A program made the position numbers and the translations under genes. A DNA stretch of 64,000 bases from Promethearchaeota archaeon Loki_b31 (GTDB lineage Archaea; Asgardarchaeota; Lokiarchaeia; Sigyniarchaeales; SOKP01), in assembly GCA_005222975.1 (NCBI GenBank), contig NJBI01000010.1, forward strand, positions 1-64,000. The letters are read 5' to 3'. The notes under the pieces were generated by a model, which did not search any database, had not been told where the DNA came from, and saw nothing but the letters and a program-made list of their open reading frames with translations. Shown here piece after piece: positions 1 through 20,000 of the stretch. Position 1 is the stretch's first letter; each line of letters starts with the position of its first letter.

Positions 1-1404
1 AAAGAAAGAAAGAAACACAAATTCTTTCTCTCCCTTAAAGATCTTGAAAGACATATGTTCGTATGTGGTACTACGGGCTCTGGGAAGAGTAATTTCTTAC
101 AATATCTCTTAACCAACTTTAAAAAACACTATGATATTCCTTTCTTACTTGTAGAATTTAAGGGGGAATACACGTTTTTACAAGATATAATTGAAGATAT
201 GGTAATAATTAGACCTGGAGAAAATTTTTCCATAAATATATTTAATCCAGAGGGGGCTAATCCAGAAATTCATGCTGAAAGAATTTTTAATATTCTAAAA
301 AGTGGACAATTTTTAGATGAGCAATCGGAATTCTCCCCTCAAATGGAAAAAGTCTTGGTAGATATTTTAACAATAGTATATAGTAATCCACAATATCAGA
401 GCTGGAAAGGTTTTTTTAATCAATGTGATCAGTATCTAGAAAATGAGAAAAGAAATATCCCTATGCTACATCAGAGTCTTGTTAGTATTCAAAATAGAAT
501 TAGAAGATTTTCATTGGGACCATTAAAAGCTATTTTTTCTACAAGGTATAAACTGAGCGTAAAAGAACTATTTGACAAGAATATTCTAATCGATCTAAGC
601 TCTATTATACGATTAGGTGGAGAAAAAGAAGATGCTCTATTTTTTCTAAATATGGTTTTAAAATATTTATGGGATAAAAATATAACACAAGGAGCGTATC
701 AATTCAAAGGCATAAAGCATCTGACAATTATCGAAGATGTACAATATTTTGCACCAAAAGATTCATCATCCCAATCCAAATTAACAACTTACTTAGAAGA
801 TATCGCACTTTTACAACGAGGTACTGGCGAATGTTTGATTTCAATTGCCACACGCCCTCAAATAAGTGGAGAAATTTTAGCAAATTGTGGCGTTTTGATT
901 GTATTTAAAAGTTATATGCAGAGGAGTCTCCTCCGTGAAATACTGAATCTTGAAGAAGAAAATGAAGATTATGTGTCAATTCTAGAAGAAGGACAATGTA
1001 TTGCCCGTGTAAACTCTGTAAAGAGACCATTTCTACTTTGGGTTCCGTATTTCAAAAGACATTGGCTAAAACGAGGGGATGTAAATAGAAAAAATAAAGA
1101 AATTCTAAAGAGATTAAAGGATAAAGATAAACCAGATATTAAACTAAATAAAGAAGAACTAAAGCAAAATACTAAAAAAGAAATAAAAAACAAAAAAAAA
1201 GGTTCAAAACCTCGTAAAAAGAAAATTTCACTAGAGAGTAAAGAATTAGAGCATAAAGTTTATTGCAAATTTTGCGGAAAAGAAGTAGAGCAAAACGTGG
1301 AAAAATGTGAGGAGTGTTCGACCAAATTAGAAAAGGAAGATAAAGAACATATGGAATTAGAAAAATTCATAGATACATTGTTGGACAAACAAACAAAGAG
1401 TTAA
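1..1404 (+). CDS. HerA/VirB4-like P-loop ATPase with C-terminal zinc ribbon; 5' end outside window
   Basis: Walker A GTTGSGKSN, IIEDVQYFAP Walker B-like, CKFCGKEVEQNVEKCEEC zinc ribbon; frame stays open upstream of the ATG at 55 to base 1 (KHKFFLSLKDLERHMFVCGTTGSGKSN). Confidence 0.75.
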   Translation, partial: KERKKHKFFLSLKDLERHMFVCGTTGSGKSNFLQYLLTNFKKHYDIPFLLVEFKGEYTFLQDIIEDMVIIRPGENFSINIFNPEGANPEIHAERIFNILKSGQFLDEQSEFSPQMEKVLVDILTIVYSNPQYQSWKGFFNQCDQYLENEKRNIPMLHQSLVSIQNRIRRFSLGPLKAIFSTRYKLSVKELFDKNILIDLSSIIRLGGEKEDALFFLNMVLKYLWDKNITQGAYQFKGIKHLTIIEDVQYFAPKDSSSQSKLTTYLEDIALLQRGTGECLISIATRPQISGEILANCGVLIVFKSYMQRSLLREILNLEEENEDYVSILEEGQCIARVNSVKRPFLLWVPYFKRHWLKRGDVNRKNKEILKRLKDKDKPDIKLNKEELKQNTKKEIKNKKKGSKPRKKKISLESKELEHKVYCKFCGKEVEQNVEKCEECSTKLEKEDKEHMELEKFIDTLLDKQTKS

Positions 1405-1603
1405 AAAGGTTTGATGAAATGCACATCAATCTCATGCGGATAAATCCGGTTTACATCAAGGATTTAAAGCACGAGCTCAAAGTGCTGCTGCTAAGAATAA
1501 AAAATAAATTCAAATAAATAAAATTTAAGTTTTAAGTTAATTGTTATAAAACTCGTATTAGAACTTTTTAAAGATCATAAATCACTGGCAATGAAAATTC
1601 CTC

Positions 1604-2323
1604 ATGAAAAGACATATCCAAGTCTCTTTAGTAATTCCGACATATAATCGATTAATGAAGCTATTTAGGCTTTTAAAAAGCTTAAATCGATTAACTCCAT
1701 TACCAGATGAGGTTATTATAATAGACGATCATTCTACGGACCAAACGCCAGAATTACTCAAGCGATGGAAAGATTTAGGCAATGGGATTTGCAAGAAAAT
1801 TGTGTTAAAGGACCAAAATAAGGGACCAGCACATTCCCGAAATATAGGAATTGAGTTAGCGTCAAACAAATTAGTGGCATTTATTGACGATGATGTTGTA
1901 ATTAAAAGCGACTGGGTTGAAAAAATAACAGCACCCTTATCTAATGCCCATAAAAGTCTTGTTGGTGTCGGTGGAGTCGTTAACGCGTTTAAAAAACATA
2001 TTATTAGTCAATATTATGTAATCCATAATATTCTGGAAGCACCAATACAACTGAATTATCTACCAACAGTAAATTGTTTTTTTAAGAAAGAACATCTTAT
2101 GGAAGTTGGGGGATTCGATGATAATTTTTTATTTGCGGGAGGCGAGGATACTGATCTCTGCCTTCGATTAAAAAAAAGGGGTTTTTTCTTCGATAAAGTT
2201 CAAGACGCTATAGTGTATCATGATTTCTCACCGAATTTTATTGATTTTTGTCATACATGGTTAAGATATGGAAAAGGAACACATTTAGCAATTCATAATC
2301 TAAGGAGGGATTCACTTGACTAA
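1604..2323 (+). CDS. Family 2 glycosyltransferase (N-terminal catalytic part)
   Basis: VSLVIPTYNRLMKL, IIIDDHSTDQT, AFIDDDVV, GGFDDNFLFAGGEDTDLCLRL. Confidence 0.85.
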   Translation: MKRHIQVSLVIPTYNRLMKLFRLLKSLNRLTPLPDEVIIIDDHSTDQTPELLKRWKDLGNGICKKIVLKDQNKGPAHSRNIGIELASNKLVAFIDDDVVIKSDWVEKITAPLSNAHKSLVGVGGVVNAFKKHIISQYYVIHNILEAPIQLNYLPTVNCFFKKEHLMEVGGFDDNFLFAGGEDTDLCLRLKKRGFFFDKVQDAIVYHDFSPNFIDFCHTWLRYGKGTHLAIHNLRRDSLD

Positions 2324-2561
2324 GTCATATTTAGTCAATGAAATTCAACAGTACGAGCTCTCTGAATTATGGGAGCAAAATATCATTGCCCGAAAATTCT
2401 CCATAAGGAATATTACTAAACAAATGACCTATAATCTGCGTATGTATTTGCGGGAAAAAGAATCCTTAACGCATATAATAATTTTTTCATTTCTAGGTAT
2501 CATTCAACTGTTTTTTTACACATTAGGGGCGTTCATAGCAAGATTACGTCTTAGACGCTAA
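2316..2561 (+). CDS. Probable C-terminal part of the preceding glycosyltransferase, in +1 frame
   Basis: Overlaps the previous stop by 8 nt in a different frame; ends in a hydrophobic helix as in GT2 C-termini. Confidence 0.45.
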   Translation: MTKSYLVNEIQQYELSELWEQNIIARKFSIRNITKQMTYNLRMYLREKESLTHIIIFSFLGIIQLFFYTLGAFIARLRLRR

Positions 2562-2810
2562 GATCAATAAAAGAGCATAACTATTTATAATAAAAAAAAA
2601 ATATAATTCTCTTAGAGACTTTTAAAAAATACATTTAAAATTACTTGATAATAATTTGGATTTTAAAAGTCCAAAATTTTTTCATAATATTTTCAAAATA
2701 AAGAAATCCAATAAATTAAATATTTATAAAATATAAAATGTATAAGAAAATCTGTATATGTCTTTCTTTTTATCTTTATAGAGTATTTAAGTATATCTAA
2801 AGTGAAATGA

Positions 2811-4724
2811 ATGGAATTAGCAAACTTTTTAGAAATATTAAATAAATTATGGGATTTTGCAAATAATTACACTTCTTATTTTAATAATCCAGCACTATTT
2901 CTTGAGACAATAAAAAGCATGGATAAGTCTTTCCTATTTGAACAACAAGATAATTACAAGTTATATAGTTTATATGATAAAGATAATATGCTTGCTCCTG
3001 TAAATTTTGTCAGGTATATAATATTAAATAAAATTTTGAGTGATAAGGAAATTACAATTGAGATGATTGAAGAATTAAAGGAAAACATTTTACAAAAGAA
3101 TAAAGGCTTTTTTAAAGAATACCCAAATCATCTCCTTGCTTTGGAAAACCTAGTTGTTGAAAAAATCGAAGCGGGAAGAAATAAGAAAGTGAAAGTATTC
3201 CGATCTTATAAAAATAATTTTAGGATTTTATACCAAATCCATTATAACAAATATAAAGAAAAATTCATTTCAGATCTCGAATCTATTGCTACTTTTTTAA
3301 GAAATGATGTATTAAATCTAAAAGAACGTTTAAAGTTTAAAATTGTGTCATTTAGTGGGAGTTCTTATTTAGGACTGCATTATTGTTGGATAGTTCTGTT
3401 TCCAAGTAATATTAGTTCTCATATGAACTCATATCAAATGTTTTTCAGAATAAAACCAGGAGAGAAAGGATTCCCCCCAAAATCAATTCATTATGGTTTA
3501 AGAAAAGGTTCAAATGTTATTGATGAAGAAAATTTTGGGAAATTGCAATTTCAGGAAATTGATAATTTTAATTATGATAATTTCAAGCAAGATTTACAAA
3601 ATATATCAACAAAACTATGGGAAAAGAACCAGAAAGTCAAACTTAAGAAGAGAATGATAGGAACACCCAATAAAGTATCCGATCTAGTAGAGGAAGACGA
3701 GGACATAGAGATTAAGGTCGAAGAAACCGAAGATATTGTGCCGTTAAATCAGATTCTTTATGGACCTCCCGGAACGGGAAAAACTTATAACAGTATTAAT
3801 TTAGCCGTTAAAATTGTTGATCCTGATTTCTTAGGAGAATCAAGAGAAGATCTCCTTAGAAGGTATGGAGAATTAACTGATATCAATCAAATTGGATTTA
3901 TTACCTTTCATCAATCTTATTCATATGAAGATTTTATAGAGGGTTTACGCTACGATGAGGAGAAAGGAATTCCAATCCCCACTGCAGGGGTTTTTCTACT
4001 ATTTATACAGAATGCCAAAAAAAATCCCGAAAAAAAATATGTACTAATTATTGACGAAATAAATAGAGGCAAAATGTCAAAGATTTTTGGAGAATTGATA
4101 ACCTGTATTGAAGAGGATAAAAGATTAGGTGGTGAAAATCAAGTACCTATAACATTACCTTATTCTAAAGAAAAAATTTCAGTTCCCAACAATGTATATA
4201 TCATCGGTACAATGAATTCCACAGATCGGAGTATTGCTTTATTAGATATCGCCCTTAGAAGGAGATTTCAATTTGTCAAACTATATCCCGATCATGAATT
4301 ATTAAAGAAAGAGTTAATTAATAAAGAGTTAGATTCTGGATTTGTAAACAATTTTATTTTTATTTTTAAGATATTAAATGAAAGAATTGAGGTATTACTT
4401 GATAAAGATCATACTATTGGTCATTCTTTCTTCTTAAAAATGAAAAATCCTCGAGATCTTTATAAAATATGGTATAACCAGATAATACCATTATTAGAAG
4501 AATATTTTTATAACGATTGGGAGAAATTACAGCTTTTACTTGGAAAATATAAGAAAGAAGAACAAAAGTTGGGGAAGGGATTTATAAAAACAAAGGACAT
4601 TGACAAAAAATCTCTTTTTGAGGAATTTTTTGAAGATTTTGACCTTTATGAAGTTGAAGATTATGAAGGAATGGAAGATGATTTTATAGAGATATTAGAA
4701 AATACTTTTATCAAAAAAAAATAA
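2811..4724 (+). CDS. mcrB: McrB-like AAA+ GTPase of a type IV (McrBC) restriction system
   Basis: LYGPPGTGKTYNS, TFHQSYSYEDFIEGLR, IIDEINRGKMSKIFGELITCIE, GTMNSTDRSIALLDIALRRRF; MrcB_N-like N-terminal region. Confidence 0.9.
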   Translation: MELANFLEILNKLWDFANNYTSYFNNPALFLETIKSMDKSFLFEQQDNYKLYSLYDKDNMLAPVNFVRYIILNKILSDKEITIEMIEELKENILQKNKGFFKEYPNHLLALENLVVEKIEAGRNKKVKVFRSYKNNFRILYQIHYNKYKEKFISDLESIATFLRNDVLNLKERLKFKIVSFSGSSYLGLHYCWIVLFPSNISSHMNSYQMFFRIKPGEKGFPPKSIHYGLRKGSNVIDEENFGKLQFQEIDNFNYDNFKQDLQNISTKLWEKNQKVKLKKRMIGTPNKVSDLVEEDEDIEIKVEETEDIVPLNQILYGPPGTGKTYNSINLAVKIVDPDFLGESREDLLRRYGELTDINQIGFITFHQSYSYEDFIEGLRYDEEKGIPIPTAGVFLLFIQNAKKNPEKKYVLIIDEINRGKMSKIFGELITCIEEDKRLGGENQVPITLPYSKEKISVPNNVYIIGTMNSTDRSIALLDIALRRRFQFVKLYPDHELLKKELINKELDSGFVNNFIFIFKILNERIEVLLDKDHTIGHSFFLKMKNPRDLYKIWYNQIIPLLEEYFYNDWEKLQLLLGKYKKEEQKLGKGFIKTKDIDKKSLFEEFFEDFDLYEVEDYEGMEDDFIEILENTFIKKK

Positions 4725-4788
4725 AATCTGTTTTATTTCTAAATCATTTAAAAATATAAGAAATTATTTAGAATATTAGAAAATTGAA

Positions 4789-6156
4789 ATGTATGTAAAG
4801 GATAAACTAATAACAGTTTTTGAATATGAGAAAGTCCCCTATGATGATCTTGAAGATAAATTAATAGATGTAGATCTTAATAGAATTAAAAATCAGATTG
4901 AGAAGATCAATGTTAGTCTAAAAACCGAAGTTATTACCTTGCGGTGGAATTATTTACAAGCTAAAAATTATGTAGGATTTATAAAACTTAAGAAGTATTC
5001 AATCCAAATAATCCCAAAAATATATCGCATAGATGGGGATTTGGAATTAGAGATTCCTAGAAATGTTAATTTTTTACTTTTCTTATTTCAGTACCTCAAG
5101 AAATCTCTATGGAAAATTAAACAGCATGATTTAGGTACCTTAAGCAGGATGAAGGGAGATATCTTTGAATTTTTTATTTATTTCTTTGCAAACAATCTTA
5201 AGATACTTATTAACCAAGGAATCTATAAGTCTTATATGAAAATAAATGAAAATAATTGCTTTTTAAAAGGTAAATTTCTAATTGATAAACAAATAAAATA
5301 TAATTCCACGAAAAAATGGAAATTTTGTTATGAATATGAAGAGTTTACAGAAGATAATATTTTAAATCAAACATTAAAATATGTTTGCTTTTTACTAAAA
5401 AAACATTCAACAAATTCAAGGTCAGAAAGACTACTCACCGATGTTTTAGCTTTATTAAATGATGTAAAATTAAGGCAAATTCGACCCGCTGATTTTAAAT
5501 TTCTGCACTTTGATAGAATAAATTCGGCGTATAAACCATTTATAGATTTCTGTAAGATATTTATAGAACAATCTAATATTGGATTTAATTATGAGGATTT
5601 TAAAAGTTTTTATTTTTTATTTGATATGAATAAATTATTTGAGGGATTTCTATCAGAATTTATAAATCGCAATAAAGATAAGATTTTTGTTAACAAAATA
5701 CATGATTTAATTGAAATTAGAGGACAGTTAGATTATTATTCAATTGGTAAACTATTTGATAAATTTAAGCTGTATCCTGATTTACATTTGAGATATAATG
5801 AAAAAAATAAAGAGAAATATATTCTCCTCGATTTTAAATATAAAATTTTAGATCCATCTAAGAGAAATTTAAGTTTATCACGTAGTGATTTATTTCAGAT
5901 GTTCACTTATTCGCAATCCCAGGATGAAAAGTATAATAACATTATTCTATTATTTCCTGAAGCAGAATTTATGAAATCTAATATTGATAATTTTTATAGA
6001 CATTCAAAAATTAGTTGTGAAGTAAATCTATTTGTTAAGACTATTAACTTACAGAAGATCTTCTTTTTTGATGAAGCTAAAAATGTAAAATACAATATTA
6101 TCGAATGGCAGAAAAAATTAATTAGTCAACTAAACAAGATTTTAGTTTTAAATTGA
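4789..6156 (+). CDS. mcrC: McrC-like PD-(D/E)XK subunit
   Basis: Directly downstream of mcrB; YPDLHLRYNEKNKEKYILLDFKYK nuclease motif. Confidence 0.85.
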   Translation: MYVKDKLITVFEYEKVPYDDLEDKLIDVDLNRIKNQIEKINVSLKTEVITLRWNYLQAKNYVGFIKLKKYSIQIIPKIYRIDGDLELEIPRNVNFLLFLFQYLKKSLWKIKQHDLGTLSRMKGDIFEFFIYFFANNLKILINQGIYKSYMKINENNCFLKGKFLIDKQIKYNSTKKWKFCYEYEEFTEDNILNQTLKYVCFLLKKHSTNSRSERLLTDVLALLNDVKLRQIRPADFKFLHFDRINSAYKPFIDFCKIFIEQSNIGFNYEDFKSFYFLFDMNKLFEGFLSEFINRNKDKIFVNKIHDLIEIRGQLDYYSIGKLFDKFKLYPDLHLRYNEKNKEKYILLDFKYKILDPSKRNLSLSRSDLFQMFTYSQSQDEKYNNIILLFPEAEFMKSNIDNFYRHSKISCEVNLFVKTINLQKIFFFDEAKNVKYNIIEWQKKLISQLNKILVLN

Positions 6157-6167
6157 GCTCATATTGT

Positions 6168-6335
6168 TTAGAGAAATCTTATAATAATTTGATTAAATAA
6201 CCTACGCATAATACTTCTAATTTCGGTGAAAGAGTCATATTTCTTCCCTGTAACCTCGTCCATATAGAGTTCACGATTTATCTCAATCATTATAGATTTT
6301 ACGTGTTTTTCTCGGTGAAGGAATTTTTATGGCAC
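6168..6335 (-). pseudogene. C-terminal remnant of an N-formylglutamate amidohydrolase-like gene
   Basis: Minus-strand translation ...VKSIMIEINRELYMDEVTGKKYDSFTEIRSIMRRLFNQIIIRFL* resembles the FGase C-terminal EINRxLYMDE motif; stop directly upstream. Confidence 0.5.
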
Positions 6336-6523
6336 ATAACAACCCTTAATGTTTAAATGTTTATCTCGTTATGACTATGTATTGCTACTTAATATGCTAA
6401 TTTTAAATCTTTCTAATTTTTGCTTTTCAGCTCATTATTGTCCTAGATTTAAAATGACTTTCCAATCCAATAAACCGCTATTATTAAGAAAAAAATAGGC
6501 TCGTAATTTTATTGATATTTAAT

Positions 6524-7762
6524 TTATATTAGACTTTTAACTATTGTTTTGATTTTTTTTTTCGATTCTGAATTTTTTAATTGATCCAAAAACAATCTTA
6601 TAAAATTATCTGGAGATTCTTCTTTAAGCGTATATAATTTTCTTAATAAAGCAATATGTTGATAAAGATTATGAAAGAAAACCCTGATTCTCATTTCTCT
6701 AAAATCTGTGCCATGTTGATTTTGGTTAGTTAATTTCTTATCTGCTTCCATACATCTACTTCTTACTTCTGCTATTGAAATATCGTTACAAAAAGGACAA
6801 TTACAAGTAAAATCTTTAAATCTGTCATTATATAATCCTTCATATTTGAACGGATCAGAATAATTGGTAATATTAAGTTCATTATCAAGTAGAGGTATGT
6901 AAACTTGAGATATCCTATCCGTACAAGCTCTTCTCCACGGGGTTGCGACATCACAACTTTCAATTCCATAAAACACCAAGAAGAAAATTTTTTTCCACCC
7001 TCCCAATCCTAAACCGTGACCACGGACTTCCCAATTATGTTTTTCTTTGAAATTAGAAAAAAGTCTTAATATTTCTTTTAATTTTAATACTCCTTGATTA
7101 GCAATACCGGCTATTCCTATATAATCTATTTTATTCGAGTGATTATTATATAATTCTTGTAATTTGGATTTGAAATCGGCAGGATTAATAGCATTTATAG
7201 GAACCATTAATTCGCAATTTTCATGTTTATTTTGAATTGAAATGTCTAATAATTCATTATTCAAATTTTCTTTTGTTTCTAATGATAACTTATTCCACTC
7301 TTCCCTTCCTTTAATCGAAATTTCGTTTCTAGATGAATAACTTGGACCAATATCAAAATTAACATAAATATCTGGTCTCCCATTTTTTATAAATTCAAAA
7401 TATGCTTCAAAATAACATCTATAACTGTTAATCTCATTTACAGGAAGATTATCATTTATAATTTTATTAAAGATTCGATTACCGCCAACATCTAATAGAA
7501 TTTTTAAATTTTGAGCTAGTTTTATGTCAACTGGCGTATATTCGGCAAGGATATCTCTAAGATTTTTTCCTTTATATTTTATTTTATAATTATTAAAGTA
7601 GGGTTTGCTTTTTGGTATAGTAAAACCGAATATAAATGAAGAGAAATTAAATAAAAAGGTATAATGATTTATTTTATTACAAAAATATGATAAATTATTA
7701 AATAGATTGTCATATTCTCCACGACCTGCTGGCCAACCAATTATTGGATAAAAATTAGTCAT
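6524..7762 (-). CDS. TGT-superfamily, DpdA-like transglycosylase (copy 1)
   Basis: KILLDVGGNRIF (TGT D-S/x-GG region), RGHGLGLGGW, IESCDVATPWRRA (nucleophile Asp region), CNCPFC...FFHNLYQH zinc site; no C-terminal PUA extension apparent. Confidence 0.75.
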   Translation of the reverse strand: MTNFYPIIGWPAGRGEYDNLFNNLSYFCNKINHYTFLFNFSSFIFGFTIPKSKPYFNNYKIKYKGKNLRDILAEYTPVDIKLAQNLKILLDVGGNRIFNKIINDNLPVNEINSYRCYFEAYFEFIKNGRPDIYVNFDIGPSYSSRNEISIKGREEWNKLSLETKENLNNELLDISIQNKHENCELMVPINAINPADFKSKLQELYNNHSNKIDYIGIAGIANQGVLKLKEILRLFSNFKEKHNWEVRGHGLGLGGWKKIFFLVFYGIESCDVATPWRRACTDRISQVYIPLLDNELNITNYSDPFKYEGLYNDRFKDFTCNCPFCNDISIAEVRSRCMEADKKLTNQNQHGTDFREMRIRVFFHNLYQHIALLRKLYTLKEESPDNFIRLFLDQLKNSESKKKIKTIVKSLI

Positions 7763-7879
7763 ATTAAAATCTCTAAGTTTTATCTTAATATAATCTTAAT
7801 ATGATTTACTATTTAAAATTGTTATTAAAAGTAAGCCAAACACGCGAATATAAATAAAAGATATTTTATTGAAATAATT

Positions 7880-8758
7880 ATGGAAGAAAGCATTCATCTA
7901 TATAAAGAACTTTTAGAATTTTGTCGCCCTAGAATTTTAGAATTTTTTAAAAATGTTAATTTGCAAGAAAGACAATTCATAATTGATCGAACTAGTGAAT
8001 TATGTTATGAACACCTATATTTTAAGAATTATAATATTCAAGAAAGACAACAATTCTTTGGTCTTATTCCACATCTTAAAAAAGTATGTAGTGGTTGTTA
8101 TAAATATTATATGAATCCTAGAAATAAATCAAACAAAAAAATGGATGTGATTTTAGGTCAGCAATTTGAATATCTCTTAATTGATTTTTTTAAAGATAAA
8201 AAAGGAATTATTTCTGAAAAAGCAGATAAATCGTATAAAAATTATCCTGATAATCTTGTAAGAGATAGTAGTAATCAAATAGTATGTTATTATGAAGTAA
8301 AATTTTTAACAGCTCCATTTCTTTTAACTTATAAGGTAAGACCCGGGAGAGAATGTTACGAAGGTTCGACAACATTAGATATTGCTAAAAAAATAAAAGC
8401 GCAACGGGAAATCGTTGAGATGTTAGATGAACCAACTTATTATGTATATTGGTTAGATTACCCCTGCCTGAAAGGAATCTTTTATTGGGAAGCAACAAAA
8501 GTCTATCAATATATTGATAAGGTAAAGATTGAATGGGATAGAAAAGAAAGAACTGGAGATTTCAAAAATAATAAAAAGATTTCTGTAACCAAAAAAGTCT
8601 ATTTGCCGTTGCTCGAAATGCATCCTTTTTCATCATTGGTTTGGATCTTTAAAAATCAGGAAATTAGAGCCTCTGAAATAATAGATAAAAGGAAAAAAAC
8701 CCGTTTACAACACAAACAAAAGAAATCAGTTCAAAAGGGATTAAATAGATTTTTCTAA
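7880..8758 (+). CDS. PD-(D/E)XK restriction endonuclease-like protein
   Basis: GQQFEYLLIDFF ... YPDNLVRDSSNQIVCYYEVKFLT (PD...EVK). Confidence 0.6.
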   Translation: MEESIHLYKELLEFCRPRILEFFKNVNLQERQFIIDRTSELCYEHLYFKNYNIQERQQFFGLIPHLKKVCSGCYKYYMNPRNKSNKKMDVILGQQFEYLLIDFFKDKKGIISEKADKSYKNYPDNLVRDSSNQIVCYYEVKFLTAPFLLTYKVRPGRECYEGSTTLDIAKKIKAQREIVEMLDEPTYYVYWLDYPCLKGIFYWEATKVYQYIDKVKIEWDRKERTGDFKNNKKISVTKKVYLPLLEMHPFSSLVWIFKNQEIRASEIIDKRKKTRLQHKQKKSVQKGLNRFF

Positions 8759-8885
8759 TTTTAGTTTTTATCTTTTTAGAAATTTTAAAGAGATTCTTGA
8801 TATCTAAATTACATCTTATTTTCAATAATTGGTTGAATAACCAAAATGTTTATTTGAAATCGCTTGAAATAAAATATTGGAAAGC

Positions 8886-9629
8886 TTATTTTAATAATGG
8901 ATAAGAATACCAAAAAATAAATCCTAATTCCATCATATCCATATTTAATGCATTACTCGTTAATTTAAAAAGCTGGATAATTTCATATTCGTTTTTTAAA
9001 TTTACTTCTAAGTCTTTTAATATTTTTTTTATTCTAAATTCAGGTTTAATTGTATTTACTCCTAATTGCATTCGTAAATATTGTATTCCAGCTATTCCAA
9101 ACCCTCTAAAATTGTACTTATTTGGGTTACTTTTAAGAAATTCTTTAATATCAAGATTAACCGCCCAATTATGAATTTCATGAATACTTTCGTCTTCTTC
9201 TAAAAAGAATTTTACAAACTCTTTAAATAATTTCCATCTATTAATATAGGAGAAAGGATGATCTGATTCTAAATATTCTCGTTTTGAGGTTGATCTCAAC
9301 AATTTATAATTATTTAGCTGCGAGAATTCATATAAACTTAATTTTGAAAACTTTTGATAGAATGGAATTAATATGTTTTTTAACATATTTTCATAATTAG
9401 CTCTTAAACTAAATATTGTGTCTACTAATATTAACGCTAAATTACCATTAAATCTTTTTAATGAAAGCCATTTGTTAGTCTCTGTTCTCGCTACTTCTTC
9501 GACTTTCTTCTTTTTACCTGTCCATTCATTGTTAAAGACAATTATATCGTATTCATAAAAGACGATTTTTTCTTCTTTTATATCCTCAACATAGTTGATA
9601 AGTTTTTTTACATCATCCAAGTTTTCCAT
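8886..9629 (-). CDS. HhH-GPD-like (base-excision glycosylase fold) protein, tentative
   Basis: FRGFGIAGIQYLRMQLGVNTIKPEFRIKKIL resembles the HhH hairpin plus KPDxHVKRF pattern; catalytic Asp position appears to be Glu. Confidence 0.4.
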   Translation of the reverse strand: MENLDDVKKLINYVEDIKEEKIVFYEYDIIVFNNEWTGKKKKVEEVARTETNKWLSLKRFNGNLALILVDTIFSLRANYENMLKNILIPFYQKFSKLSLYEFSQLNNYKLLRSTSKREYLESDHPFSYINRWKLFKEFVKFFLEEDESIHEIHNWAVNLDIKEFLKSNPNKYNFRGFGIAGIQYLRMQLGVNTIKPEFRIKKILKDLEVNLKNEYEIIQLFKLTSNALNMDMMELGFIFWYSYPLLK

Positions 9630-9641
9630 ACCTTTTTGATA

Positions 9642-11159
9642 TTAAAGAAATTCGTCTAATTTCATTACTTTTTTCCCTTCAGCTTTTAGTCTGTATTTCA
9701 TGATTTCAACATAATTTGGGTTTATTTCATAACCTATCCAATTTCTAAATAATTTATTCGCAACGACTAATGTAGTTCCAGATCCTGCAAATGGATCAAG
9801 AATATAATCACCCTTATTTGTAGACAATAAAATTATCCTTCTTACAAGCTCTTTAGGATAAATTGCGGTATGTCGTATTTTCTTATTTTTAATCATAAGG
9901 GAAACTTCTCTTCCAATATTACCGATTTTACGAAACATTCGCCATATATTAGGTAAATCTTCATTATTTAAATGAATGTAATCAGGAGTATGTAATAACT
10001 TAATCTCTTTATTAAATTTATAATCTGAAGTTTTGGAAAATAACAATATGAATTCATATCGGTCTCCAAGATTTTTTTCGCCATAAGCAGATACTGCTAT
10101 TGGTTTATGCCAAATAATAATATCAAGTAAACTAAAACCAATTTTTTCAATGGTAGTATAGAAATTATAGGGGAATAAAATCATATTTCCTTCTTTCACT
10201 CTTTTGTTAATATTAATCCAAAGTGTACCATTATTTTTTAAAACTCTATAACATTCTTTCCAGACTTTATTTAGCCTATTTAAATACTCAATATAAGGGC
10301 TATTATATCCTATTTGATTAGAATGATCGTAATCTCGCAATCCCCAATAAGGAGGGCTTGTAATGACAGATTGAATAGTATTATCAGGGAGATCGTTCAT
10401 GTTTTCACTAGATTTTATGAAAATATTTGATTTTAAATGATTTTTAATTAATAATGCATGATTTTTGTAATCTATTGATTTTACCAAATTTAATTCGTCT
10501 TTTTGTTCGAGAAAATTGAACTTTAGTTCTACACTAAGAAAATTTTCATTGAAATTATTAATTTTATTAAATTTATCGTGTAAAAACAATATTTTATCGT
10601 CTTTACTTGTAGTAGCTTTAATTATTCGGTCTATTGCTTCAGATTTTTTAAGGATTAAATATTCAATTATTTTTCCTTTACCGTTATCTTTAGTTTTAAG
10701 CCAAAAATTACTAGGATCTTTCCCCTTCTCGTTATATCTGCTTTTTCTTCCTCCTGACCACTCTACATTTTTCCATATATGTTTTTCTCTTATCGGATCT
10801 TTGTTGAATTTATAATTATCTTTTTGTTTTGTTAAAAATATTATATGAGAATATCTGTTTTCAAAATTTACTGAATTATTTTTATAATTAAGATTGTAAT
10901 AAACGATTAGATTTTTTAACACATACCCTAATTCTTTTAAGTTATTGCACAGAATAAAGGGAATAGGTATAAGTTTACTGTTATTAATAATATTGTTTGT
11001 AAAAATCCATAGTGTTCCTTGTTCTTTTAATAAATCTTTACACTTACTATAAATTTTTAAAAGAGGAGGTAAGCTTTTATAACTATTTTCTATTTGAGTA
11101 ATAATTGTTTGAATAGAATTTTGTTCTATTTCACCTAAAATTGAAAGATTATCATTCAT
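9642..11159 (-). CDS. DNA N4/N6 methyltransferase, tandem fusion with degenerate N-terminal copy
   Basis: C-half TSPPYWGLRDYDH and DPFAGSGTTLVVANKL; N-half aligns with it but lacks both motifs. Confidence 0.85.
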   Translation of the reverse strand: MNDNLSILGEIEQNSIQTIITQIENSYKSLPPLLKIYSKCKDLLKEQGTLWIFTNNIINNSKLIPIPFILCNNLKELGYVLKNLIVYYNLNYKNNSVNFENRYSHIIFLTKQKDNYKFNKDPIREKHIWKNVEWSGGRKSRYNEKGKDPSNFWLKTKDNGKGKIIEYLILKKSEAIDRIIKATTSKDDKILFLHDKFNKINNFNENFLSVELKFNFLEQKDELNLVKSIDYKNHALLIKNHLKSNIFIKSSENMNDLPDNTIQSVITSPPYWGLRDYDHSNQIGYNSPYIEYLNRLNKVWKECYRVLKNNGTLWININKRVKEGNMILFPYNFYTTIEKIGFSLLDIIIWHKPIAVSAYGEKNLGDRYEFILLFSKTSDYKFNKEIKLLHTPDYIHLNNEDLPNIWRMFRKIGNIGREVSLMIKNKKIRHTAIYPKELVRRIILLSTNKGDYILDPFAGSGTTLVVANKLFRNWIGYEINPNYVEIMKYRLKAEGKKVMKLDEFL

Positions 11160-11189
11160 TTTTTACTTAAGTTTATAGATTTTTTTTAT

Positions 11190-12065
11190 TTAAATATCAT
11201 TAAAATTAATTAGTTCAAAGTTAGACGCATTGTATTGTAAGTTATCTAATTCTAGTCTTCTTTTAATCAAATCACGATAATTTGGATTTAACTCTATTCC
11301 AATTGAATGCCTTTTTAAAATTCTGCTTACTCTCATAGTTGTCCCTGAACCAACAAAAGGATCTAGCACGATATCATATTCATTTGTAGTCATCTTTATT
11401 AATCTCTCTATCATTGGATCTGGATATACACAAGGATGATTTATATTGTTTTTTTTTTTTGTCATATTATTAACTCTGTTAAAAAACCAGTGATCCGTAG
11501 GGTTTCTTCCTTCTTTTCCAATTAATCTTTTATCTTTCTTAGTTATAAATGGTATCCTTATATCATCCAAATTGAATATATAATTATTTATATCTTTAAC
11601 AAACCATAAAATGGCTTCCCAGCGACCACTCAATCGTTTTACGCAATTTTGCATGTTATTAAAATGCCATATAATCTTATTTCTTAAAAAATATCCATTT
11701 TCTTTAAAAATAAAATATACAATAGAATCTAATGGTATAATTTCTTTTGTTTTATTGTTTTTTGGGATGGGTGATATATTTATTAAAAAACTTCCATTAT
11801 CTTTTAAAATCCGCTTACTATATTTAGCTGTTTTATTAATAAATTCTTGCCATTTATCTAGATCTAATTTATCTTCATAATATCCGCCATAATCTTTATA
11901 TAATCCATAGGGTGGACTAGTGATAATCGTTTGGATGCTTTTTGATTTAATCAAATTCTGATCTTTTAATGCTTCTATTGCATCCCCAATTATTAATTTA
12001 TGATGAGTCTTTTTTTCGTCGGACACTTTTATTATACTTGTTTGTTTCAATAATTTATCTGTCAT
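11190..12065 (-). CDS. DNA N4/N6 methyltransferase (TSPPY then DPFVGSGTT order)
   Basis: IITSPPYGLYKDYGG, VLDPFVGSGTTMRVSRI. Confidence 0.88.
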   Translation of the reverse strand: MTDKLLKQTSIIKVSDEKKTHHKLIIGDAIEALKDQNLIKSKSIQTIITSPPYGLYKDYGGYYEDKLDLDKWQEFINKTAKYSKRILKDNGSFLINISPIPKNNKTKEIIPLDSIVYFIFKENGYFLRNKIIWHFNNMQNCVKRLSGRWEAILWFVKDINNYIFNLDDIRIPFITKKDKRLIGKEGRNPTDHWFFNRVNNMTKKKNNINHPCVYPDPMIERLIKMTTNEYDIVLDPFVGSGTTMRVSRILKRHSIGIELNPNYRDLIKRRLELDNLQYNASNFELINFNDI

Positions 12066-12248
12066 TAGTTATTACCATTAATTATTTAATCATTTTATGT
12101 TTTTAATTTTATTATTAACCCTATATAATCACATTTATTTTATTTAAACGAAAAAATTATAGGTATTATGATATATATATCAAAGGATATATTTAAATAT
12201 AACTAGTAGTTACCCGAAAATATATATAATAATTGTAATTGTAATTAT

Positions 12249-12410
12249 ATGATCGAGATGGGAAATAAAAAAATTATCAAGCTTCCAGAAGAATTAACAG
12301 ATAGAATAGATAAATTTATTAATCAAAAAGGAAGATCAATAGGGTTAGAAAATAGAACTGAATTAACAAAAAGAGCAATTGATGATTTTTTATCAAAATA
12401 TGAAAATTGA
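12249..12410 (+). CDS. Small ribbon-helix-helix (CopG/MetJ-like) regulator, 53 aa
   Basis: Not in supplied track; translated MIEMGNKKIIKLPEELTDRIDKFINQKGRSIGLENRTELTKRAIDDFLSKYEN*. Confidence 0.65.
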   Translation: MIEMGNKKIIKLPEELTDRIDKFINQKGRSIGLENRTELTKRAIDDFLSKYEN

Positions 12411-12593
12411 AGATTTTTTAATTAGACCTACCTAATTCTCTCATCAATTCAAGATTTTGCATTTTTTCGACTTTTTTAAATAATATTTTTATTATTTTTT
12501 CTAAAAAGGAATTATTTTTTCATTAGATGATGAAGATTTTTAAGTATATATTCACTTATAAAATAAATTTATAAATCCATACGGCTAAATAAC

Positions 12594-13988
12594 TTGAGAT
12601 TTAAAACAATAGATAACCAAGAAAAAATTCTTAAAACTCCTTCTTTCTTTATAACTAATAATTTTGGCGGTGGCGGAACAAATGTTTCAAGATTATTCTC
12701 TTATTTAGGGGAATTAAATATAAGAAAAATTAATCTTCTTTTAAATTATTATTATTTAAACACCAATTTAGGCAATAAAATGGTTTTTGATAGAGTTCTA
12801 ATCGATAAATCATTTGAATTTGAGAATATTGAAAATTGGGTGGAATATGTAAGAGGAGTGTATATTGAAACTGAAAAAAAAACCACAAGTAAGATTTCTT
12901 TAAAAAAATTAGAGAATTTGAATTTCTTTTTACTTGATTCAGGTTCGGGTAACATTTTCAGGAATATAATTGAGGATACATCTGATAATATTTTAGATGA
13001 ATATACTAAGATTATTAAAGATTATCATAATTATGCCCATAATTTAAAATTAAATATAATAATTGCGATGGATTTTGCTAAAAAGTACACATATAAGGCA
13101 GGTGAGAAAGGAGATGAGAAGTATGTAAGAATCTCCGATGAATTTGGAGAAGATCTAAATAAAAATCGTCGATTAATAAAATTAACAATAGAAGATCTTC
13201 AGAAGAGAGACTTTTTCACTCCATTAGTCTTTGCTCCGATACATGGAAATTCTCCTAACAATTATTTAAGTTATTTAAAATCTATTATAGAATTTGAAAA
13301 AAAATATGATTTTAAATTTGATGGATTTGCTATAGGTGGAGGTATTGCTAATTCTAAAGGAAAAGACGAGGATATATGGCAATTCCCTAAAAAACTTAAT
13401 AGATTTACTAAAAGTGCATATATTTGTTCGATAGTTACTAAAATGATTTCAGATTTTTTAAAAAACATAAATGATGACCGAACTATACACATTCTTGGTG
13501 CTGGTAATCATTTTAATATATTGCCATTATGGATTTGTGGAGCTGATTCTTATGATTGTCATTCTTCTTGGAGAAGAGCTACAGAAAACAAGATTTTAAT
13601 ACCTCTATTAAATTCCAATGGAAACTATGTTAAAAATAAGAACATATTTCATTTTAAAAAGTTAAGTGAATTAAATGGTTCAGATTTTAACTGTGAGTGT
13701 GAAGTATGTCAAAATTATAATTTAAATAATTTAAAAGAGTTAACAATAAAAAATAAAAGAGAAACACACATTGATAAAGAAAAATATTACTATGGAGAAA
13801 TTCTTGTATTTTTTCATGCAATATATCAATATGAATATTTACTCAATAAATTTAAAGAATTTAAAGATATTGAAACTATACAAAAATTCATTTTGAAAAT
13901 TCCAGATAAAAATTTGCAGAAAAATTATATTGATCTTTTAAAGCATTTGAAAATTACAGAGGGAATAACAAAATTCTTTGGAGCTTAA
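12594..13988 (+). CDS. TGT-superfamily, DpdA-like transglycosylase (copy 2)
   Basis: FFLLDSGSGNIF, FDGFAIGGGIA, ILGAGNHFNILPLWICGADSYDCHSSWRRATENK, CECEVC...FFHAIYQYEYL. Confidence 0.75.
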   Translation: MRFKTIDNQEKILKTPSFFITNNFGGGGTNVSRLFSYLGELNIRKINLLLNYYYLNTNLGNKMVFDRVLIDKSFEFENIENWVEYVRGVYIETEKKTTSKISLKKLENLNFFLLDSGSGNIFRNIIEDTSDNILDEYTKIIKDYHNYAHNLKLNIIIAMDFAKKYTYKAGEKGDEKYVRISDEFGEDLNKNRRLIKLTIEDLQKRDFFTPLVFAPIHGNSPNNYLSYLKSIIEFEKKYDFKFDGFAIGGGIANSKGKDEDIWQFPKKLNRFTKSAYICSIVTKMISDFLKNINDDRTIHILGAGNHFNILPLWICGADSYDCHSSWRRATENKILIPLLNSNGNYVKNKNIFHFKKLSELNGSDFNCECEVCQNYNLNNLKELTIKNKRETHIDKEKYYYGEILVFFHAIYQYEYLLNKFKEFKDIETIQKFILKIPDKNLQKNYIDLLKHLKITEGITKFFGA

Positions 13989-14239
13989 TATATTTTAAAT
14001 ATTATTGCTTTCTTTCATAATTTAACTCTGATGATATTTGCGACTTTTTTGATCATATCTTAGAAGTAGTTTTCACTAAGAAATTAAAAATTATTTCTCA
14101 ATAATTATTGAACCAATTAAGTTTACTTACATCTATAATTTGCCGATTAAATAGATTTAAGAAAGATTTTAGTTTAGTTTTTAAAAAAGAAGTGTAAATT
14201 TTTATAAATGTTAATCAAATTTAATCATTCAATAATTCT

Positions 14240-15397
14240 ATGAATATAAATCACTATTATAAATATGATTTTGAACCAATTTCAAAAAATTTAAGCTCTT
14301 CAGAAATTAAATTATCAGAATTAGAAAACATCCGATATATTGAAAATCCAAAATATTTTCATAAAGAGACAGCATATAAAAAAAAAATAGATGGGAAAAT
14401 TAGTTATTATTATTATTTTTCTAAAATAAAATCAGTAAAAGCTAGCCTTGGAACAAGATATTTAACTCATGGATTAGATTTATATAAGGGGAATTTTCAT
14501 GCACAAATGATTCGGAGTTTGATTAATTATTGTAATCTCCCTCCGAAATCTATTATCCTTGATCCTTTTTGTGGCAGTGGCACTACTTTAATTGAAGCAA
14601 ATCTTCTTGAATTTAATGCAATTGGTATAGATATCAACCCAATCGCATGTTTTAATTCTCATATTAAGACAAAATTACTAGATGTACCATTAGATTTTTT
14701 GATTTCACATAATAAAAAATATTTTGATATAAACTATTATAATAAAAAGAACTTTACGAAATTTAATTTTAATGAAATTTTAAAAATAAATATCAGAGAA
14801 CTTTTTTATTTATTTATATATACACGTGCTATTTCAGATGAGACTTATATTTTAAAAAATAGATTTGAATCCTTTAAAGATAATTATGAAATTATAATTG
14901 ATATTCTTAGAAATTATCAGATATTAAAAAAGCAGTTAAGATTAAGTATAGGAAAGACTAAAATAATGCATGGAGATAATCTTTTTCATTTAAAATTGAT
15001 AAAGAAAAATATTATTGATTGTATTATTACTTCACCTCCTTATTTAGATGTTATAGATTATATATCAAATGATAGAAATCAGATTAAATATTTTATAAAT
15101 GAAAGCGAAATTAACCAATTAAGAAATAAATCATACGAACAAAAATACGAGAGCTATAGGATTACAGAAAAAAAATTTTGGCTAAAGATTGAGAAATTTT
15201 TACAAGAAGCTTTTCGAATTCTAAAATCCAATTCACATTTGATAATAGTTGTAGGTTTTTATAGGAAAATGCATGAAAACTTATCAAGATTAGCAAAAGA
15301 CATAGGTTTTATTATGGAGATGATAATAAAAAGAGAATTTTTCAATTTTAAAGGTAAGAAAAATCATGATTTCATTTTATTTTTTAAAAAAATATGA
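14240..15397 (+). CDS. DNA methyltransferase with motif order DPFCGSGTT then TSPPY
   Basis: IILDPFCGSGTTLIEANLLEFNAIGIDINP ... IITSPPYLDVIDYIS. Confidence 0.8.
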   Translation: MNINHYYKYDFEPISKNLSSSEIKLSELENIRYIENPKYFHKETAYKKKIDGKISYYYYFSKIKSVKASLGTRYLTHGLDLYKGNFHAQMIRSLINYCNLPPKSIILDPFCGSGTTLIEANLLEFNAIGIDINPIACFNSHIKTKLLDVPLDFLISHNKKYFDINYYNKKNFTKFNFNEILKINIRELFYLFIYTRAISDETYILKNRFESFKDNYEIIIDILRNYQILKKQLRLSIGKTKIMHGDNLFHLKLIKKNIIDCIITSPPYLDVIDYISNDRNQIKYFINESEINQLRNKSYEQKYESYRITEKKFWLKIEKFLQEAFRILKSNSHLIIVVGFYRKMHENLSRLAKDIGFIMEMIIKREFFNFKGKKNHDFILFFKKI

Positions 15398-15852
15398 TAT
15401 ATTTTTTTTATATATTTTAAATACATTTTATATGTTTCAAGAAGAGATGATCGCGAAATAACCGTTATTCTAAGTGTTCCTAGAAACAGGAAATTAAAGC
15501 CAAAACAATCCGAGTGCACTTTCTTTAGCGGGCTATCAAATTGAAAAAATAGGAGTGCAAATGAGAGAGGGTATAGCGGACATGAACACTTTTATTTATT
15601 CAAATAACCATCGAGGTAATTAAATATACCATCTTTAATCCTTAGAAAAGACTGATCGTATACTTTTACTTTTTCAGTTATTTTTAATAAATTCTCTTTT
15701 GAATTAATTTGTTTAATATTGAAGAAATTATGTTTGTAATCGAAAATGATACTCAGGCATTATTCGAAAAACTCAATCAATTAGGTATTAAGGATTATGT
15801 TGATATTAATCGACCAAATGCATGCAAAAAATAACATATCTAAATTTTTAAA

Positions 15853-16203
15853 TTAGAATTTCAATCGCCTTTTTTTCTTAATCGAAACTTCAATCGCTTT
15901 TATCTCTAAAGGATTTAACCCCTCCAAAAGAATGGCTTCAGCAACCTTTAAACCACTCTCATTAAGAAGAATCTTATGCCGTGAACCGTGATTTTTAAGA
16001 TTATCTACATATACTCTATCAATATATCGCTTTTTTGTTAAGAAAGAAAGCACTTGAGAAATTTCGCTCTTGGATTTATTAAACTTCTTAATGATGTCCT
16101 CTGTTAGTATCTCTACCTTACGATAACGCCGTTGCCTAAGAAATAACAAGATCCTTGAACTGAGTTGGGGGTAGAACTTCTTCATCTCCTCGTTTGTTAG
16201 CAC
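15853..16203 (-). CDS. Winged-helix/MarR-like small DNA-binding protein
   Basis: RRYRKVEILTEDIIKKFNKSKSEISQVLSFLTKKRYIDRVYVDNLKNHGSRHKILLNESG. Confidence 0.5.
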   Translation of the reverse strand: MLTNEEMKKFYPQLSSRILLFLRQRRYRKVEILTEDIIKKFNKSKSEISQVLSFLTKKRYIDRVYVDNLKNHGSRHKILLNESGLKVAEAILLEGLNPLEIKAIEVSIKKKRRLKF

Positions 16204-16593
16204 ATTATTTATCGGTTTAAAAGTTTTTAAACTCCATTTTTTTTCAATGAATAGTTAAACAGAAAAGATATATAATAGATTTAATAAATTAGGTTAATTT
16301 TAAAATATTTTATCATAAAAAGAAAGCTATATCTGGTCCGTATGGATACTTTTTTTGCCTTTCACATTCTACTAAATACATAAATTTCGTACAGTCTAAA
16401 ATTGCTTCTTCTATGTCTTCAATAGAAAACTGAAAATTGATGGTAAAGATTTACAGAAATTTAATGATTTCATTAATAACCTCTGGAAAGAGCAAAATGA
16501 TAAATTATAAACCATCTGAAAGAATTAAATTCCTTTTTCTGTTTTATGGGCTCTTTAAATTGATGAAGTTAAACCAAGTAATGTATTTCTATC

Positions 16594-16794
16594 TTGGTGA
16601 AAAAAATGAAGAGTGGTTTTTACTATGTCCTGTGCGATAGGTGCTATAAGATTCAAAGTTTTGAAAAGCTTAAGGAAGATGACCCATTCTGGAACGATCA
16701 TGATAATGATGGAATAAAGGCTTTTTCTTGCTCTTGTGGTAATATCGACATAATGATTGTTGTCTGTAAAGAAGCCCTTTGGGACTTTCCCTAA
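16594..16794 (+). CDS. Small zinc-binding protein
   Basis: LCDRCYKIQ...CSCG, two Cys pairs; start likely at an internal ATG. Confidence 0.4.
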   Translation: MVKKMKSGFYYVLCDRCYKIQSFEKLKEDDPFWNDHDNDGIKAFSCSCGNIDIMIVVCKEALWDFP

Positions 16795-16903
16795 ATTTCT
16801 TTTTTTTTTAATTCAAGATAGATTTACTCTTCTAAAAAAAAAATCAAATAGAAATACAAATAGCCATTTTTTATTTAAATATAACAATATAATATCATTA
16901 ATA

Positions 16904-16964
16904 GATTCCTACCAGAAAAAGGTCATCACATAGCCTCCAAGATAGATATACACTGGTAGGAATC
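16904..16964. repeat. 12-bp perfect inverted repeat GATTCCTACCAG/CTGGTAGGAATC with 37-nt spacer
   Basis: Arms at 16904-16915 and 16953-16964. Confidence 0.8.
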
Positions 16965-17198
16965 TCCCTATTTTTTTAGTTTAGATTTTATTAAACTACC
17001 TATTCTCCGCTTACAATGACAAAGTTTAATAAAGATTAAACCAGTTTACTGAGCATTAAACTTCAGATTTCCTCTAGTTCCAAGAATACAATTATATATT
17101 ATGATTTGCTATCTGTTGCATAAGACTGCGCGAATTGCAATCTTAAAAATCAGTATGCGCGATAATGCTGCTGATAAAAACCAAAAGGTTGGAAAAAA

Positions 17199-18845
17199 AT
17201 GAATAATTTAGATAATGACAAAAAAAAAGTGGAACAACTCACAAAAATTAGACACGCATATACAAACCTTGTAGATTATTTAAAAGAACTTTTATTTAAA
17301 GAACGCATCCTAGATTCTCCCTCGTACGCAGAACTCTCAAGAAAACTTGGTTTTAAATACAATTGGATCAAGGAAAAAAAGTATTCAATGAATCAAGGAC
17401 ATTTCCCTAAAAAAGAAACTTTTGACGATCTCTATAACCGACTAGCAAACAAGTATATGAGTAAACTTAGTAAATCCTACGAAGCGATCCAGAATAAATT
17501 TAACACTCTCTATACTTTTAGCTTCTCTACGGATAAACAATCGCTTTCAATTTCATCTTCTCAACAAAAGTCTATCAAAAGGGGATTCTTTAATAACATA
17601 AAAGGAATTATAAAGAACCATTTTCCTAACGCTAGAGTTTTTGACACAGACATTTCAAGACTATTCTTTGAGAGAGCAAGAGCATTGAAGGATTCTCATC
17701 TTAAGGGTAATTATAAATATAGAAAACTTGAATTATCAACTCTCTTTAATTTCATATACAAAATAAGAACTGTAACTACTGAAGAATTTGCTAATTTTTT
17801 TACAGATATAATTACTGTAGATGTGGATAATTTACAGATAATTAGATTTGAGGTAGAAAATTTCATTGAAGAATTCATTTTTGCAAATCCGTTTGATGTT
17901 AAATATATTGGCGATTCACATAACAAAGGAACAAGATATTTTAAACCCGAATATGAATTAACATTATCTATTTGGTTTGAAATGTCTAAAGCAAAGAAAA
18001 AGCCAATTCTCCTAAAGAATGCACGAAAACTATTGAAATATCAGACTTTTGGAAGGATTAATAGATTTGGACAACCTGATAGAGGTAAAGTCTATTCTTG
18101 GATAGGTCTTATGAACATGCTTAAAGAATTAGTTAAATTAGTACCTTACAGCTCATATTCTAAAATTTTCAAAGAAGTTTGGGACTATATAAATATACGA
18201 AATCTGTATCTTATTCTACCTAGAGTTTATCATCCAAGTTGGTACACCATCAGCACTATAAAATTTCATATAATTACACTAATAATTCGGGATCTTGGTC
18301 TTGATATTTTAACCTTAGAACCGATCAAATCTGAATCTTTTAAAAAAACTCATAGAATGGATTCATTTACTTACGAAAGACATCATATATTTGTAAACGA
18401 TAAGATGTCCATCGATGTCAACAGATTAGCTCTTGTTATGCATACGAATCATTATAATCTTGAAGGAAAATCAAACTTAGTTCTTGATTTAATTCGAAGA
18501 AGAATCAACTTAACTTTTGATTGCCCTCAATATTACAAGAAAAACATTATTGACTGGAGAGATAAATGGCAACATTATCTACAGAGACGAACTTTCTTAA
18601 TTCAGAATGGAATCGTGAACTTTATCAACGAATATTTCACTGACGATAACGGAAATAACTATATCTTTGAAAAGTTCTTCAGTAACATTCCCAAAGACAA
18701 CATTGAACAAGATATCAAAAATCTCATGCTCGAATGGATCAACAAACACCGACCAGCACCCATCCTAAACTCTCACATCATAACAAAACTCTTCTGCGGT
18801 ACTCCAAATTTAGTTACATCTGGATTTATTCAATATAAATCCTAA
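17199..18845 (+). CDS. Uncharacterised protein with HNH-like motif in C-terminal half
   Basis: YERHHIFVNDKMSIDVNRLALVMHTNHYNLEG resembles HHxx...N..H nuclease spacing; otherwise unrecognised. Confidence 0.45.
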   Translation: MNNLDNDKKKVEQLTKIRHAYTNLVDYLKELLFKERILDSPSYAELSRKLGFKYNWIKEKKYSMNQGHFPKKETFDDLYNRLANKYMSKLSKSYEAIQNKFNTLYTFSFSTDKQSLSISSSQQKSIKRGFFNNIKGIIKNHFPNARVFDTDISRLFFERARALKDSHLKGNYKYRKLELSTLFNFIYKIRTVTTEEFANFFTDIITVDVDNLQIIRFEVENFIEEFIFANPFDVKYIGDSHNKGTRYFKPEYELTLSIWFEMSKAKKKPILLKNARKLLKYQTFGRINRFGQPDRGKVYSWIGLMNMLKELVKLVPYSSYSKIFKEVWDYINIRNLYLILPRVYHPSWYTISTIKFHIITLIIRDLGLDILTLEPIKSESFKKTHRMDSFTYERHHIFVNDKMSIDVNRLALVMHTNHYNLEGKSNLVLDLIRRRINLTFDCPQYYKKNIIDWRDKWQHYLQRRTFLIQNGIVNFINEYFTDDNGNNYIFEKFFSNIPKDNIEQDIKNLMLEWINKHRPAPILNSHIITKLFCGTPNLVTSGFIQYKS

Positions 18846-18900
18846 TTTTTTTTTTTCATCATTATTTAAATATTCTTTTTTCCATACCTTTACCATAACA

Positions 18901-19350: not shown

Positions 19351-19418
19351 CTCTGCCAGATCGCCTAATAAAGGCTTTAAATCAGACTCTGCGCCCCCTG
19401 TGACCGCCTGAGCCGTTT

Positions 19419-19811: not shown

Positions 19812-20000
19812 TTTAAAACCACCATTTTAATATTTTATTTTATTATAAAGGACTAATTATTTCTAAAATTTGAAGTTTATTATAATTTTAACTAGTTATC
19901 CTAATATCTTCAGCGAATTATGATAGATAAAATGAGGAAATTTGATAGGATAATTAAAAAATTTTTTATTAGATTAAATATCTAATATTCCTTAGAATTA

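Follow-up and report, generated by a model that had tools for sequence, protein, structure and literature searches.

The window, which is the whole stretch of 64,000 nucleotides analyzed here and lies on contig 17 of a 3.5-Mb genome, carries a cassette of ∼5.9 kb that encodes, in this order, a transglycosylase of the TGT type (copy 1), a putative nuclease (protein Y), a DNA-glycosylase-like protein (protein X), two N4/N6 DNA methyltransferases (MTase B and MTase A), and a 53-aa protein resembling ribbon-helix-helix (RHH) regulators (Table 1). The cassette recurs in mirrored order, with 62 to 81% protein identity, in "Candidatus Lokiarchaeota archaeon isolate 9R3_44" (genome G120), the nearest named relative that bears it and, by the grouping of the classification tool, a member of the same family but of another genus. 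The similarity between the two blocks stops sharply at both ends, at positions 6552 and 12421, and includes the 53-aa ORF and its upstream region, whose product is a possible controller of the cassette. All five large genes have dN/dS values of 0.09 to 0.25, rough figures with synonymous sites near saturation, and are by this measure under purifying selection. The low G+C content of the region (0.23 to 0.25, compared to 0.31 to 0.35 for most other parts of the window) and the McrB-like AAA protein and McrC encoded next to it (2811-6156) are consistent with an acquired defense island, in which the cassette is a mobile six-gene block. No Rfam family was found at positions 1 to 20000, and the region has only short repeats, which seem to be chance matches of AT-rich sequence.

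Table 1. Features of the cassette and its immediate surroundings (positions in the window)
Feature	Length	Position	Strand	Basis and remarks
TGT/DpdA-like transglycosylase, copy 1	412 aa	6524..7762	-	ATG start; TGT profile, AlphaFold2 fold, active-site alignment
Conserved cassette		6552..12421	.	~75% nucleotide identity to L009 12471-6456, mirrored; flanks unrelated
Protein Y, putative PD-(D/E)XK nuclease	292 aa	7880..8758	+	E97, P123-D124, E139-V-K141; low-confidence model
Protein X, HhH-GPD DNA-glycosylase-like	247 aa	8886..9629	-	Profile comparison; Glu197
MTase B, N4/N6 DNA methyltransferase	505 aa	9642..11159	-	TSPPYW, DPFAGSGTT
MTase A, N4/N6 DNA methyltransferase	291 aa	11190..12065	-	TSPPYG, DPFVGSGTT
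Ribbon-helix-helix-like protein	53 aa	12249..12410	+	Divergent from MTase A; RHH_1 E 0.02-0.03, below cutoff
Copy 2, second TGT-like protein	464 aa	12594..13988	+	TTG start; other branch of copy 1 clade

Just beyond the conserved block lies the gene of a second TGT-like protein, copy 2, which matches the Pfam TGT family (PF01702) more strongly than copy 1 does (44.4 bits, E = 1.5e-11) and is followed by another N4/N6-type MTase gene (14240-15397). MTase B seems to consist of two MTase halves in tandem; the first of them, at the N terminus, looks degenerate and has no catalytic SPPY motif.

Copy 1 is a diverged, true member of the TGT superfamily. It scores 27.1 bits against PF01702, compared to a gathering cutoff of 26.3 (E = 2.8e-6), and as a profile with its homologs it matches QTRT1 structures at E ∼5e-4; the 9R3_44 ortholog, searched alone, does not reach E 0.01 against PF01702. 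An AlphaFold2 model of the 412 residues, built from four sequences and of moderate confidence (pLDDT 65, pTM 0.70), matches only TGTs in the PDB at E ≤ 0.001—six out of six, with the archaeosine TGT 1iq8 as the best hit at 1.5e-5—and its matches in a viral library include proteins annotated as queuine/TGT. These results bear out the TGT relationship proposed for this gene in an earlier note on this DNA, together with the TIM-barrel TGT fold on which that proposal had been staked. The label "DpdA-like" given there fits in a loose sense, in that copy 1 does score weakly with DpdA models (21.1 bits with that of PADLOC), but it does not hold as a family assignment: the NCBIfam DpdA score (NF041059, 20.1 bits) is below threshold, at a tenth of the equivalog cutoff of 200, and copy 1 belongs to a branch separate from DpdA, marked by a WRRA motif that follows the nucleophile in all four aligned proteins of the clade (residues 276 to 279 of copy 1). 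A separate, canonical TgtA is also encoded in the host genome.

To compare active sites, we aligned copy 1 with Tgt of E. coli, TgtA of the host genome, and DpdA of phage 9g. D91 of copy 1 aligns with the general base of E. coli Tgt (D89), D137 with its pocket aspartate (D143), D271 with its nucleophile (D264), and C320, C322, C325, and H364 with its zinc ligands (C302, C304, C307, and H333), and we take these residues to have the catalytic roles established for TGT enzymes. Across four homologs, which represent two branches sharing 22 to 24% identity, none of these residues varies, nor does H249, and the probability that eight residues named beforehand all fall within the 44 invariant columns is ∼9e-9; the same catalytic and zinc residues are present in copy 2 and in two homologs. 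The general base, nucleophile, and zinc ligands that the earlier note had recognized by eye are thus confirmed, whereas its substrate loop was misplaced. The segment in question, GHGLGLGG, aligns with RYLMGVG of E. coli Tgt and holds H249, the equivalent of His196 in 9g DpdA; the loop itself (YAVGGL in E. coli) corresponds to IGIAGI at residues 215 to 220 of copy 1. His196 is described as a conserved residue of DpdA proteins that DpdA2 proteins do not have (PMC6884629). A histidine also occupies this site in the TgtA of the host genome, so that H249 does not discriminate between DpdA and archaeal TGTs.

All catalytic residues have been retained under purifying selection (dN/dS ∼0.17), which makes it plausible that copy 1 is enzymatically active. 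Its base pocket differs from that of known TGTs, with N95 in place of F93 (an aromatic position), V92 in place of S90, and N190 in place of Q187 (Gln or His in known TGTs); copy 2 has a histidine at the site of N190. These substitutions in the pocket, the linkage to DNA methyltransferase and nuclease-like genes, and the failure to find preQ0 synthesis genes in the host argue for a nonstandard substrate. The earlier note had argued for the same from the missing PUA domain, and this argument falls away: Pfam finds neither a PUA nor another recognizable tRNA-binding domain in copy 1, but E. coli Tgt and phage DpdA equally do without a PUA.

The partner of copy 1 is protein Y, which has no match in Pfam, PADLOC, PHROGs, or NCBIfam, and whose profile gives no significant Pfam match and no meaningful sequence match in the PDB. 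Three Y homologs share the invariant motifs Q95-F-E97, Y-P-D124, and E139-V-K141. In a model of low confidence (mean pLDDT 56, ∼70 to 83 over much of the core), a helix at residues 83 to 106 precedes strands at 111 to 114, 125 to 128, and 134 to 143, a helix at 165 to 181, and a strand at 186 to 193; this is the strand order of PD-(D/E)XK nucleases, with Asp124 preceding one strand and the ExK motif in the next. No PDB structure matches the model below E = 0.001, and the top five hits (Rep15) carry no nuclease annotation. Among the other matches are λ exonuclease, archaeal Hjc, fusellovirus D212, MGME1, and HincII, all of them weak (E 0.02 to 0.5), and tRNA splicing endonucleases are also on the list. 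Whereas the MTase genes of the cassette are clear, Y is thus nuclease-like by motif and weak fold likeness only, and we regard it as a putative PD-(D/E)XK nuclease.

In all three known loci, Y neighbors a TGT of the copy 1 clade. Of 232 Asgard genomes, three have the TGT clade and three have Y, and these are the same three, a coincidence with a chance value of 5e-7 if kinship is ignored; the three genomes represent two families. For these counts, the remaining weak matches among the 232 genomes were examined and then set aside, among them a weak Y match in G078, which was rejected because the ORF is a different protein. A scan of genome contigs with a few Y patterns returned only two loci, both already known. 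In Freyarchaeota SQRJ_82, a distant member of the Asgard archaea, ∼190 bp separate the genes of a Y homolog and a copy 2 homolog, type I Cas6-Cas8-Cas7 genes lie ∼7 kb from the pair, and there is no MTase gene within 10 kb on one side, the other side being the contig edge.

Protein X, in turn, is not specific to the TGT system, as no TGT is found in the short flanks of other X genes. Seven further Asgard genomes encode relatives (E 7.5e-17 to 1.4e-6), whereas X has no significant Pfam or meaningful PDB sequence match. A nine-sequence X profile scores 32.9 in hhalign against an Asgard HhH-GPD glycosylase profile, while 100 column shuffles reach no more than 17.8 and the reversed profile 14.7, with the HhH motif and the catalytic Asp in register; two-sequence profiles give no significant match to HhH-GPD proteins, so that the likeness emerges with the nine-sequence profile only. 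At the catalytic position, X and its ortholog read KPE (Glu197), whereas the relatives in other Asgard genomes (L047-L053) read MPD. Protein X thus resembles HhH-GPD glycosylases, and its catalysis may be altered.

The genes for a putative nuclease and for DNA methyltransferases next to that of a TGT suggest a so far undescribed defense system that marks and cuts DNA. Copy 1 most likely works on DNA, although its sequence by itself does not tell a DNA target from an RNA target. We give an even chance to a small restriction-modification module resembling Dpd: the TGT would exchange a base and so mark the DNA, and the nuclease Y would cut whatever DNA lacks the mark. In such a module, D91 as the general base and D271 as the nucleophile would release a target guanine by breaking its glycosidic bond, the enzyme would hold the DNA covalently during the exchange, and the other base installed in place of the guanine would serve as a self mark; DNA without this mark would be cut by the PD-(D/E)XK-like Y. 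TGT and Y would form the conserved core, to which the lokiarchaeal form would add the two N4/N6 MTases with their methyl marks, the HhH-GPD-like X, and possibly the RHH-like controller. A marking enzyme with a cutter of unmarked DNA is also the simplest reading of the Freyarchaeota pair, which has no MTases on its readable side, and the defense surroundings (McrBC here, Cas6-Cas8-Cas7 in Freyarchaeota) count in its favor. Counting against it are the failure to recognize a DpdB- or DpdC-like gene in the cassette, the low confidence of the Y model, and the presence of the pair in only three genomes.

A further point against this explanation is the supply of the base. DpdA enzymes insert preQ0-type bases, that is, 7-deazaguanines, in DNA within bacterial restriction-modification clusters (PMC6884629, PMC12839542). 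In the host genome, which is 92% complete, PTPS/QueD, the ArcS core, and the YhhQ family have no match, and the QueC-family matches are weak and partial, none of them convincing, which puts the source of a 7-deazaguanine in question. Within the genus, 11 of 25 genomes have QueD, which is absent also from some that are reported to be ∼100% complete, and QueC/QueD-type base-supply genes are present in the Freyarchaeota genome. The base could be salvaged by another route, or it could be other than a 7-deazaguanine. In 9R3_44, QueC and PTPS/QueD matches occur only in broken frames (G120:C53:5697-6390), which may reflect decay or an assembly error. A broader departure from Dpd, which we consider unlikely, is that guanine is exchanged for a base that is not a 7-deazaguanine, or that the exchange is itself an attack on unmethylated DNA, served by a dedicated PD-(D/E)XK nuclease, as a new kind of defense that is so far limited to Asgard archaea.

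The attack version, taken alone, is the main rival and, in our view, unlikely: the TGT would swap or remove guanines in DNA that MTases A and B have left unmethylated, and the altered or abasic site would be cut by Y, perhaps together with X. The two MTases could then provide self-protection, a relative of HhH-GPD glycosylases and a nuclease-like protein are indeed encoded alongside the TGT, and restriction enzymes that act by base excision are already known, R.PabI being the analogy (PMC4357717, PMC10273834). R.PabI would share glycosidic-bond chemistry and accompanying DNA methyltransferases with the cassette under this reading only, and it differs in its unrelated HALFPIPE fold and in that bases are not exchanged. 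TGT chemistry, moreover, restores a base at the site, so that AP sites are not its normal outcome, and the Freyarchaeota pair shows no MTase in the 10 kb visible beside it.

A second rival moves the target from DNA to RNA, with the TGT modifying tRNA or another RNA, Y taking part in a defense linked to tRNA as a DNA nuclease or an RNA-directed one, and the MTases being ordinary neighbors. The best PDB matches of copy 1 are tRNA-acting TGTs, copy 1 keeps the zinc site that the aligned 9g DpdA lacks, and tRNA splicing endonucleases are in the fold list of Y. Yet the genome already has its canonical TgtA, the order of MTase and TGT genes is conserved in a second genus, and copy 1 lacks a PUA or other recognizable tRNA-binding domain, all of which leaves this rival with a small share of the probability. 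Smaller still is that of a solo TGT paralog settled in a defense island beside an unrelated type II-like restriction-modification system made up of the MTases and Y, as a passenger or a stand-alone DpdA of the phage type. Defense islands do gather unrelated genes, and phages carry solo dpdA (PMC6884629), but the gene order and sharp ends of the cassette are conserved in two genera, and in Freyarchaeota Y adjoins the other TGT branch with no MTases seen there. Finally, a catalytically dead TGT or a DNA-binding subunit, to which the changed residues of the base-holding pocket (N95, N190, and V92) and the low overall similarity to known TGTs might point, is very improbable given the invariant catalytic residues and zinc ligands and the purifying selection.

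The Dpd-like module that we favor differs from each of the systems closest to it. The bacterial Dpd system (DpdA with DpdB/DpdC and restriction genes) likewise ties a TGT-superfamily enzyme to restriction-type functions, and copy 1 shares with it the catalytic Asp residues and the His196 equivalent. Because copy 1 falls far below the DpdA equivalog cutoff and no DpdB or DpdC match is found among its neighbors with Pfam, PADLOC, or NCBIfam, we do not file the cassette as a Dpd system; it also departs from Dpd by including two N4/N6 MTases and an HhH-GPD-like protein and by pairing the TGT with another nuclease-like partner, and is found here in Asgard archaea only. The DpdA and DpdA2 proteins of phages (Enterobacteria phage 9g and Vibrio phage nt-1) are, like copy 1, stand-alone TGT folds without a PUA, and they are DNA enzymes. 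They differ from copy 1 in that no preQ0 synthesis genes lie beside it and in their very low sequence identity; 9g DpdA shares the histidine but not the zinc ligands. Archaeal TgtA and bacterial Tgt have the fold, general base, nucleophile, and zinc site in common with copy 1; TgtA has extra C-terminal sequence and a tRNA substrate, whereas copy 1 has an altered base pocket and the WRRA motif. BREX-related (BRC) systems with a TGT also combine a TGT in a defense cluster with the lack of DpdB/DpdC, but they contain PglZ, a BrxC-like protein (DUF6079), HerA/FtsK, and GNAT, none of which is present in the cassette (PMC12839542).

Beyond Asgard genomes, scanning viral contigs with the TGT alignment, with either TGT copy, or with Y yielded no relatives. 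In tblastn searches of phages and plasmids, copy 1 and Y had no match and copy 2 had a single weak one, and X had no relatives in plasmids. The known systems of DNA base exchange rely on preQ0-derived bases and occur in bacteria, in phages, and in some archaeal viruses. If our reading is right, the TGT-nuclease core would extend the exchange of guanine in DNA to the Asgard archaea, the archaeal lineage nearest to eukaryotes, in hosts that may not make preQ0; it could reveal a new DNA base, and it would offer a very small system for studying how base exchange marks and directs the cutting of DNA. Our literature search found no paper joining Asgard archaea, 7-deazaguanine, and transglycosylases, and the main text of a survey of archaeal defense does not mention Dpd (PMC12988326).

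Several minor observations were made along the way. Distant TGT-like proteins in other Asgard genomes carry a Glu where TGTs have the nucleophile Asp (SIES; L027 211-1365 and L030 9155-10279), and the gene in L030 adjoins a DUF5591 (ArcS-core-like) gene. In L028 (8185-10811) and L029 (8211-10835), a distant TGT-like gene lies between DUF6884 and DUF5591 genes (Pfam, L028), possibly as a different base-modification cluster. Elsewhere in the window, a 548-aa protein (17199-18845) has no significant family match, and an HdrA-like gene (23211-24995) contains one in-frame TGA (CGI-U-VLAPIMVNASKH). Some archaeal HdrA proteins carry selenocysteine, and this TGA probably encodes it as well.
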